Assembly: GCA_009827215.1 (NCBI GenBank)
Contig: WUAJ01000003.1
Location: 1 to 32,165, forward strand
Reading direction: 5' to 3'
Origin: Phycisphaeraceae bacterium
Lineage (GTDB): Bacteria > Planctomycetota > Phycisphaerae > Phycisphaerales > UBA1924
DNA length: 32,165 nt
How positions within the stretch are numbered: position 1 is the stretch's first letter; the number at the start of each line of letters is the position of its first letter. Under the pieces are notes generated by a model, which saw nothing but the letters and a program-made list of their open reading frames with translations, did not search any database and was not told where the DNA came from. Below are positions 10,764 through 17,140 of the stretch, one piece after another. The position numbers and the translations under genes were made by a program.

Positions 10764-10819
10764 CTGGGAATGGTCCCTCGGCGTGTGTGTAACTCCGATC
10801 GCTCGGCGATCATTCCCAG
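10764..10819 (+). promoter_or_regulatory. Structured 5' leader of efp
   Basis: CTGGGAAT (10764-10771) pairs with ATTCCCAG (10812-10819); inner hairpin GATCGC-TCG-GCGATC (10797-10811) directly adjacent. Confidence 0.45.
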
Positions 10820-11938: not shown

Positions 11939-12570
11939 CTATTTGCGGCGTGGACCGCAGCGCAGAGTTTGGCAATCTTGGTGTGGTCTTTGATTCCCGG
12001 CTCGGATTCGACGCCGGATGAGATGTCCACGGCGTAAGGCTTGAGGGTCTTGATGACCTCGGTCACATTGGATTCATCCAGACCTCCGGCGATGATGATC
12101 CGCTTTGTATAGTTCTCTATGAGTGGTGCGAGCTGGGACCAATCGAACGCTTTGCCTTCACCTCCATCGGAGCCGTCGATGAGGAGGGCGTCGACCTCGG
12201 CAACCTTTGACCAACGATCGAGCTGGGATTGGATGGTGACCTGTTCGTATTTGAATGCCTTGATGACTCCGGGTCCGCACTGCTGGACGAGTGAGACAGG
12301 TTCTTTGCCGTGGAGTTGGAAGGAGTGCGCGGGACAGGTTTGTTCGAGGTCACAGAACTCGTCGAGGGTGAGGTCGCGGGAGACTCCGATCGCGGAGACC
12401 ATCGGTGGTAAGTTGAACATGATCGCGGCGGCGTCATCCGGATCGATGAAGCGCGGGGTGTCTTTGACGAAGATGAATCCGAGCGCGTCGGCGCCGTTGT
12501 CCACGGCGGCTTGGGCGTCGGCGATGTTGGTGATGCCGCAGATTTTGATTCGTGTGCGATGGTGAGTCAT
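11935..12570 (-). CDS. trpF: Phosphoribosylanthranilate isomerase
   Basis: RIKICGITNIADAQAAVDNGADALGFIFVKDTPRFI...; IIAGGLDESNV; DISSGVESEPGIKDH. Confidence 0.93.
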   Translation of the reverse strand: MTHHRTRIKICGITNIADAQAAVDNGADALGFIFVKDTPRFIDPDDAAAIMFNLPPMVSAIGVSRDLTLDEFCDLEQTCPAHSFQLHGKEPVSLVQQCGPGVIKAFKYEQVTIQSQLDRWSKVAEVDALLIDGSDGGEGKAFDWSQLAPLIENYTKRIIIAGGLDESNVTEVIKTLKPYAVDISSGVESEPGIKDHTKIAKLCAAVHAANS

Positions 12571-13724
12571 TCTTGTTTGCTCCGGATGGCATCGAGTTCG
12601 GATTGGGCGAGAGCTTTGATGTCGTCGTCTGAGGTGTTGGCGATGAGGTTTTTGAGGATGTCGAGGGCTGCGTCAGGGTTGTTGAGATCGTTTGCGTTGA
12701 TGCGGGCGCGGAGGATGCAGATGACATCGCGTTCGGTATCGTTGGGGTAGTCCTTAAGCAGTGCTTGGTACGCGTCGAGTGCTTCCTGACGCTGATTGGT
12801 TTGATAAAGATGATTGGCGATCTGGTACTGCGCATCGCGATGCATCGTGGTCGGGTACTTGGGATCATCATTGAAGTACTGGACCATCGCGAGGTAGCGA
12901 TCTGCAGCATCTTCGACATTGCCTTGCGTGAGGCGTTCTGAGATCTGTGCTCGGCGTGCGGCGAGTTCGGCGACCATTGGATCCTGTTTCGATTCGGTCT
13001 TGTAGGGTTTCGGAGTGGAGTTGCGTGACGCGGCTTTGAAGGCGCGTTTGCGGTTCTTATGCTGGAGGATGGAGAAGAGGTCGTAGCTCGGTTCGCGCGC
13101 GAGGATCTTGGTCGCAAGGAGGAAAATTGCGGTGGAGATTCCTATCGCGTATCCACCAAGATGTGCGGCGTTTGCGGTGCCGTTGTTGGGTTGGAAGGTT
13201 TGGGAGAAGAGATCGATGACGATCCAGAGTCCGATGAGCCACCACGCTGGCGCCATGAGGAACTGGATGAGGATGAAGAACCAGAGCACGCGGATGCGTG
13301 AGTTGGGAAACAGCACAAGGAACGCGCCGGTCACGGCGGCGATCGCTCCCGATGCGCCGATCGCGGGATGGTTGGACACAGCGACATGAATGAGTCCCGA
13401 TCCGATCGCGCCGACGAGGTAGAAGATGGTGAATCCGATGCGTCCGAAGCGATCCTCGACTGGGGGTCCAAACACGAAGAGCGCGAGCATGTTGCCGGCG
13501 ATGTGCCAGAAGTCGGCGTGGAGGAATGCGGAAGTCACGGGTCCCCAGGGTGTGAGGTCGTGTCTCCAGACTTGTCCGAAGTTCAAGAATCGTTCGACGA
13601 GCTGGGGATCCGAAGATTGGAGAATGATCTGGAGGACGAATACCACCAGATTCAGGGCGATGAGCACAGGGACAATGCGTGTCCTGCGAGCAAGGGGGCG
13701 GTTTGTACCCAGAGGGATGAGCAT
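12567..13724 (-). CDS. Rhomboid family intramembrane serine protease with C-terminal TPR-like extension
   Basis: FLHADFWHIAGNMLALFVFG, GASGAI (Ser), AHLGGYAIG (His); C-terminal ~150 aa of helical repeats. Confidence 0.9.
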   Translation of the reverse strand: MLIPLGTNRPLARRTRIVPVLIALNLVVFVLQIILQSSDPQLVERFLNFGQVWRHDLTPWGPVTSAFLHADFWHIAGNMLALFVFGPPVEDRFGRIGFTIFYLVGAIGSGLIHVAVSNHPAIGASGAIAAVTGAFLVLFPNSRIRVLWFFILIQFLMAPAWWLIGLWIVIDLFSQTFQPNNGTANAAHLGGYAIGISTAIFLLATKILAREPSYDLFSILQHKNRKRAFKAASRNSTPKPYKTESKQDPMVAELAARRAQISERLTQGNVEDAADRYLAMVQYFNDDPKYPTTMHRDAQYQIANHLYQTNQRQEALDAYQALLKDYPNDTERDVICILRARINANDLNNPDAALDILKNLIANTSDDDIKALAQSELDAIRSKQE

Positions 13725-13780
13725 CGGGGATGGTACACGGTTGAGCGGGGCGAGGGAGTGGTGTGTTGCCTATAGTTACC

Positions 13781-13832
13781 ACCCGGTATCTGGAGACGCT
13801 GAGAGAGCGTGGCATTCCAGATCGAGCCGGGT
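13781..13832 (+). ncRNA. Candidate structured 5' UTR element upstream of gltA
   Basis: Nested stems ACCCGG/CCGGGT, ATCTGGA/TCCAGAT and ACGCT-GAGAG-AGCGT, about 30 nt upstream of the ATG at 13866. Confidence 0.5.
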
Positions 13833-13865
13833 CTTTGAGCCGATTTGTAGTCGAAAGGATGCTGT

Positions 13866-15008
13866 ATGAGCACCGCGGAAAGCACTTTCTCCAAGGGTCT
13901 TGAGGGCGTCGTTGCCGCACAGACCGAGATGTCGTTTATCAATGGCACCGAAGGGGTATTGGAATATGTCGGGATCGCGATCGGTGATCTGGCATCCAAG
14001 AGCTCGTTCGAGGAGACGGTGTTCCTGCTCTGGAATAAACGGCTCCCCACCGCTGCTGAGCTTGAAGCGTTCAACGCAGAACTCCGTGAAGACTACACGA
14101 TGACCGATGCGCTCAAGGAGCGGATCAAGGCGTGTCCTGTTGATGCGGAGCCGATGCATGTCATCCGCACGATGATCAGCTCGATGGCGATGGATGATCC
14201 ATCTCCGAATGAGAACTCGGTCGAGGTCGCTCGTCACAAGGCATTGAACATCCTTGCGACTGCTCCGGCAATCGTCGCGGCGTTTGATCGTCATCGCCGA
14301 GGATTGGACATTGTCGATCCGGATCCGTCACTGAGCTTTGCGGCCAACTTCCTGTACATGCTCAATGGCGAGAAGCCGACTGATGCGATGGTTCGTGCGT
14401 TTGATATCTGCATGATCACGCACGCGGATCACGGATTGAACAACTCGACCTTCGCGGCTCGCGTGGTCATCTCAACTTTGTCGGATATGTACTCGGCGAT
14501 CACCGCTGCGGTTGGCTCGCTCCGCGGTCCGCTCCACGGCGGCGCGAACGAGGGCGTGATGAAGATGCTCAACCAGATCTCAGATGTGGATTCTGTGGAG
14601 AGCCATGTGATGAACATGATCGCGAATAAAGAACGCATCATGGGATTCGGTCACCGCGTCTACAAAGCGAAGGACCCTCGTGCTGCGGAACTGATGACGC
14701 TCGCGAAGCAACTCGCCGAAGACACGGGCAACATGGACTTGTACAATAAGTCGCACGCGATCGAGCTCGTTATGGAGCGTGAATACGCGGCGAAGGGGAT
14801 CTATCCGAATGTCGACTTCTACTCCGCGACCACATACCACTGCATCGGCCTGAAGCTTGATTTGTTCACTCCGATGTTCGTGCTCGCACGCATCGCGGGT
14901 TGGGCGGGGCATGTGATTGAGCAGCTCGGCGATAATCGTCTGTATCGTCCAACGACTGATTATGTTGGACAGCACGCAGTGCCGTATGTTGCGATCAAAG
15001 ATCGTTGA
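13866..15008 (+). CDS. gltA: Citrate synthase
   Basis: GSLRGPLHGGANEGVMKML, GFGHRVYKAKDPRA, PNVDFYSATTYHCIGLKLDLFTPMFVLARIAGWAGHVIEQ. Confidence 0.96.
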   Translation: MSTAESTFSKGLEGVVAAQTEMSFINGTEGVLEYVGIAIGDLASKSSFEETVFLLWNKRLPTAAELEAFNAELREDYTMTDALKERIKACPVDAEPMHVIRTMISSMAMDDPSPNENSVEVARHKALNILATAPAIVAAFDRHRRGLDIVDPDPSLSFAANFLYMLNGEKPTDAMVRAFDICMITHADHGLNNSTFAARVVISTLSDMYSAITAAVGSLRGPLHGGANEGVMKMLNQISDVDSVESHVMNMIANKERIMGFGHRVYKAKDPRAAELMTLAKQLAEDTGNMDLYNKSHAIELVMEREYAAKGIYPNVDFYSATTYHCIGLKLDLFTPMFVLARIAGWAGHVIEQLGDNRLYRPTTDYVGQHAVPYVAIKDR

Positions 15009-16945: not shown

Positions 16946-17140
16946 GTCGAGATTCGATCTCGATCGCCGTTTTTTGAATAAATGCTCGGATTTTTGGTAA
17001 GCGGGCACTAGAATCGTGACCCCATTTTGGGGAATCAAAAGTTTGTGAAAACTTCACGGTACACACCCTTTTCCTGTCGTTGACATGGGTGACACACAGG
17101 ACAAGCAGGAATATCACCACCACCCAGAGGCACGCACATC

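Follow-up and report, generated by a model that had tools for sequence, protein, structure and literature searches.

A short stretch of DNA upstream of a citrate synthase gene (gltA) can fold into a hairpin, and the locus raises the question of what that hairpin does. The preliminary description of the sequence proposed a possibly cis-regulatory leader of three nested stems, with a pseudoknot that could gate translation. The window (the whole stretch that was analyzed) is 32,165 nucleotides long. It is from a Phycisphaerales MAG of an uncultured planctomycete, and the relatives used for comparison are likewise Phycisphaerales MAGs. The gene at 13866..15008 (+) encodes citrate synthase. It contains 380 amino acids and matches Pfam PF00285 with an E value of 7.7e-128. 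In many genus members, the start of the divergent rhomboid-family gene could be recognized ahead of gltA. The features of the locus are listed in Table 1.

Table 1. Coordinates of features around the gltA leader, numbered from the first letter of the window
Feature	Position	Strand	Sequence, basis or remark
Divergent rhomboid-family membrane protease gene	12567..13724	-	Pfam PF01694
-10-like promoter box	13769..13776	+	CCTATAGT (TATAGT 13771-13776); conserved upstream of gltA
Predicted 5'-terminal stem-loop	13781..13832	+	RNA folding; conserved in sister species G006
Outer stem	13781-13787/13826-13832	+	ACCCGG 13781-13786 / CCGGGT 13827-13832
Middle stem	13788-13794/13816-13822	+	ATCTGGA 13788-13794 / TCCAGAT 13816-13822
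Inner stem	13796-13800/13806-13810	+	ACGCT / AGCGT; loop GAGAG 13801-13805
3'-side bulges	13823-13825; 13811-13815	+	CGA; GGCAT; RNA folding
Shine-Dalgarno of gltA, outside hairpin	13854..13859	+	AAAGGA; sequence
Proposed pseudoknot partner, not supported	13859..13863	+	ATGCT; 3/5 pairs lost in G006

The divergent gene has a feature of its own. A TACCAT sequence (a TANNNT box) lies a few nucleotides before the ATG of the rhomboid gene (window 13724-13745, minus strand). Many genus members retain a GTACCAT- or GTACGATC-like stretch at that position. This sequence pattern suggests that the rhomboid gene mRNA may be leaderless.

The promoter of gltA was examined in an alignment covering the 19 genus members in which the gltA upstream region is complete. 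All 19 carry a (G)CCTATA(G/A/C)T box, or CCTATGAT or GCCTATGAT, before gltA, at 75 to 129 nt from the ATG. Related -10-like boxes were present in most other family members examined. A sigma-70 scan found no -35 match upstream of gltA. Given the position of the box and the standard spacing of 6 to 8 nt downstream, transcription is predicted to start at 13782-13784, which is the foot of the hairpin and would make the hairpin the extreme 5' end of the mRNA. A stem beginning within a few nucleotides of the transcription start would be consistent with the conserved box. Nothing about the box points to a start downstream of 13832, which the preliminary description had named as refuting its proposal.

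The minimum-free-energy fold of the 52 nt at 13781-13832 is the hairpin, at -27.6 kcal/mol. The stem sequences and coordinates given in the preliminary description were all exact, as were ATGCT and the ATG at 13866. Its three nested stems were correctly placed; with extra U-G pairs they fold as a single long stem that is bulged twice on its 3' side (CGA and GGCA). The fold of 13781-13868 had a z score of -2.0 (8 of 200 shuffles were equally good), and the first 60 nt past the predicted start had a z score of -3.1 against shuffles. The 5' UTR thus contains a stable stem-loop (z -2 to -3). With the flanks included (13725-13900), z was only -0.6, which is unremarkable. The fold exceeds chance expectation but is not exceptional. 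We also ranked it against 143 regions upstream of roughly predicted genes on a 400-kb contig of the sister species, where the strongest 52-nt folds averaged -16.2 +/- 4.6 kcal/mol. The window hairpin would rank about second in this set, and the sister species' own gltA leader ranked eighth. The gltA leader is only among the strongest few percent of folds locally. Its own genome, which is 86% complete, contains the hairpin a single time; a DNA search there found no second copy.

Only the sister species (G006), whose citrate synthase is 96% identical, shares the hairpin. Its copy lies equally far from the ATG. The two sequences differ by 10 substitutions in 52 nt. Of these, 6 affect unpaired positions (14 in total) and 4 affect paired positions (38 in total; Fisher P 0.016), and the bulges and loops change fastest. 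Three of the stem changes (13790 C to T, 13796 A to G and 13806 A to G) each replace a Watson-Crick pair with a G-U pair. The fourth, at 13832, breaks the terminal pair. The chance of three of four stem changes keeping a pair is P 0.06 to 0.20, depending on transition bias. No double compensatory change was found in the stems between the two species. On this comparison, retention of pairing lends modest support to the structure.

In the other genus members, the stretch from the promoter box to the Shine-Dalgarno region is unrelated in sequence and could not be convincingly aligned with that of the window. A covariance model of the hairpin, run over 21 genus genomes, returned the two gltA leaders and one chance-level match (E 4.7). 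The covariation in homologous leaders by which the preliminary description proposed to check its RNA did not appear: outside the window the hairpin was recognizable in G006 only, and there were no double changes.

The tendency to fold is shared more widely. In eight members (G017, G019, G001, G005, G020, G018, G014 and G002), the first 38 to 50 nt fold to within 0 to 2 nt of the predicted 5' end. Over the first 60 nt, gltA leaders had a mean z of -1.79 (n=19), and seven lineages, grouped by eye on leader similarity and not by tree, had means between -1.2 and -2.8. The controls were weaker. Generic upstream regions gave -0.48 +/- 1.22 (n=136); they were taken at a fixed offset, as genes with a TATANT box numbered only two, too few to use. 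Elongation factor P (EF-P) leaders gave -0.66 and H+-pyrophosphatase upstream regions -0.53, both loci having been located by tblastn. Pairing at the 5' end is weak or absent in G010, G015, G008, G009 and G012, so the hairpin is not essential and is a tendency rather than a rule.

The two control genes also have upstream elements in the window. The EF-P leader (10764-10819, plus strand; start codon 10833) contains a 12-bp stem, CTGGGAATGGTC (10764-10775) with GATCATTCCCAG (10808-10819), that overlaps the beginning of the AGGAAA Shine-Dalgarno (10818). G006 keeps this stem with a compensatory T-A to C-G change (CGGGAATGGTC/GATCATTCCCG), and it is present in G017 too. It may be a better candidate than the gltA hairpin for controlling translation. 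Upstream of the H+-pyrophosphatase gene (17141), at about 17070-17140 (+), a block TGACACACAGGA...CACCACCACCCAGAGGCACGCACA lies just before the start codon. It is nearly identical in G000, G006, G001 and G005 and less so in G019, and it is more conserved than the gltA leader.

These results fit best with the known 5'-terminal stem-loops, since the stem closes the predicted 5' end and there is no terminator, no occlusion and no conserved core. The gltA hairpin would then be a fast-evolving 5'-terminal stem-loop that protects the mRNA from 5'-end-dependent decay by RNase E or RNase Y, and we give this reading a probability of about 0.5. The gltA mRNA would start at, or 0 to 2 nt from, the base of a bulged hairpin of roughly 50 nt. 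Next would come about 30 nt with little pairing, which include the Shine-Dalgarno. The hairpin would keep the 5' end double-stranded, which may hinder both removal of the 5' phosphate and 5'-end-dependent entry of RNase E or RNase Y. The housekeeping gltA mRNA would live longer, with its ribosome site left free. RNase E/G and RNase Y scored above cut-off in nine of nine genomes tested, and RNase J in none of the nine. The presence of RNase E/G and RNase Y makes 5'-end protection plausible.

It is possible that the hairpin has no function: the inverted repeat, in a short intergenic region between divergent genes, may have arisen by chance or be drifting neutrally, and the two sister species would share it through common descent. 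Its sequence is conserved in no more than one sister species, the shuffle P is about 0.01 to 0.04, and equally strong folds occur in about 1 to 5% of the sister genome's upstream regions. The avoidance of stems by the substitutions argues against this, as does the better folding of the genus gltA leaders than of the three control sets. A palindromic operator for a regulator, acting in the DNA and overlapping the promoter and start region, is improbable. The inverted repeat does sit right at the predicted start, within a divergent promoter region, but the arm sequences are unrelated between lineages that share the promoter box, and the three G-U changes preserve RNA pairing and not DNA palindromy.

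The pseudoknot was rejected on the evidence of the sister species. In the window, GGCAT and ATGCT are complementary over 5 bp, one of them G-U. In G006 the bulge reads GAGTT, and three of the five pairs are lost although ATGCT is kept there. ATGC adjoins the Shine-Dalgarno, where GAAAGGATGC is retained in G006, G001, G005, G017 and G019. It is kept (as GGATGC) in the last four despite unrelated sequence in the hairpin region, so its conservation does not argue for a pseudoknot. About 21 nt separate the end of the hairpin from the Shine-Dalgarno, which is not occluded and is roughly as accessible as its counterparts in relatives. Of the earlier proposal, the structured 5' leader stands, given the promoter box, the retention in G006 and the stem-loops in the genus; the regulatory part does not. 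The leader matched no known riboswitch class, and the preliminary description had recognized none; an Rfam search gave no match at the gathering threshold or at E values up to 10. No terminator was found in a scan, and a literature search turned up no report of a riboswitch for citrate synthase in planctomycetes. A ligand- or protein-responsive RNA (riboswitch, thermometer or autogenous-protein site) is very improbable and the riboswitch reading unsupported: a structured leader before a metabolic gene and a GGCAT able to pair with ATGCT speak for it, and the broken pseudoknot, the fast-changing bulges and loops, the lack of a conserved core in the genus, the Rfam result, the missing terminator and the open Shine-Dalgarno region speak against it.

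The leader hairpin is real and has modest support; it is of a familiar kind. A broader form of the protective reading is that genus gltA transcripts share a position-conserved, sequence-free 5'-cap hairpin that is selected only for blocking the 5' end and determines how long this central-metabolism transcript survives in bacteria that possess RNase E as well as RNase Y. We consider this doubtful. To our knowledge, post-transcriptional control in Planctomycetota is little studied. If true, protection by the gltA hairpin would provide an example of 5'-end mRNA protection in this phylum. It would also warn against taking a strong leader hairpin for a riboswitch when its sequence is not conserved.

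The gltA leader resembles metabolite riboswitches and other Rfam cis-regulatory leaders in being a structured 5' UTR before a metabolic gene. Unlike them, it has no conserved core covering orthologous leaders (the hairpin is recognizable in G006 only), no expression platform and no Rfam match. Hairpins at the 5' end are known to protect mRNAs and to impede RppH and 5'-end-dependent RNase entry, and stabilizing 5'-terminal stem-loops include the ompA and papA leaders in E. coli and the aprE leader in B. subtilis (review PMC3997798). Unlike these, the present case concerns gltA in Phycisphaerales, the stem is long and bulged, and we infer both the start and the stabilization. Like them, the gltA hairpin sits at the predicted 5' end, and the stretch after it, which includes the Shine-Dalgarno, is open. 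It likewise has no ligand core or sequence motif, and the genus encodes RNase E and RNase Y.
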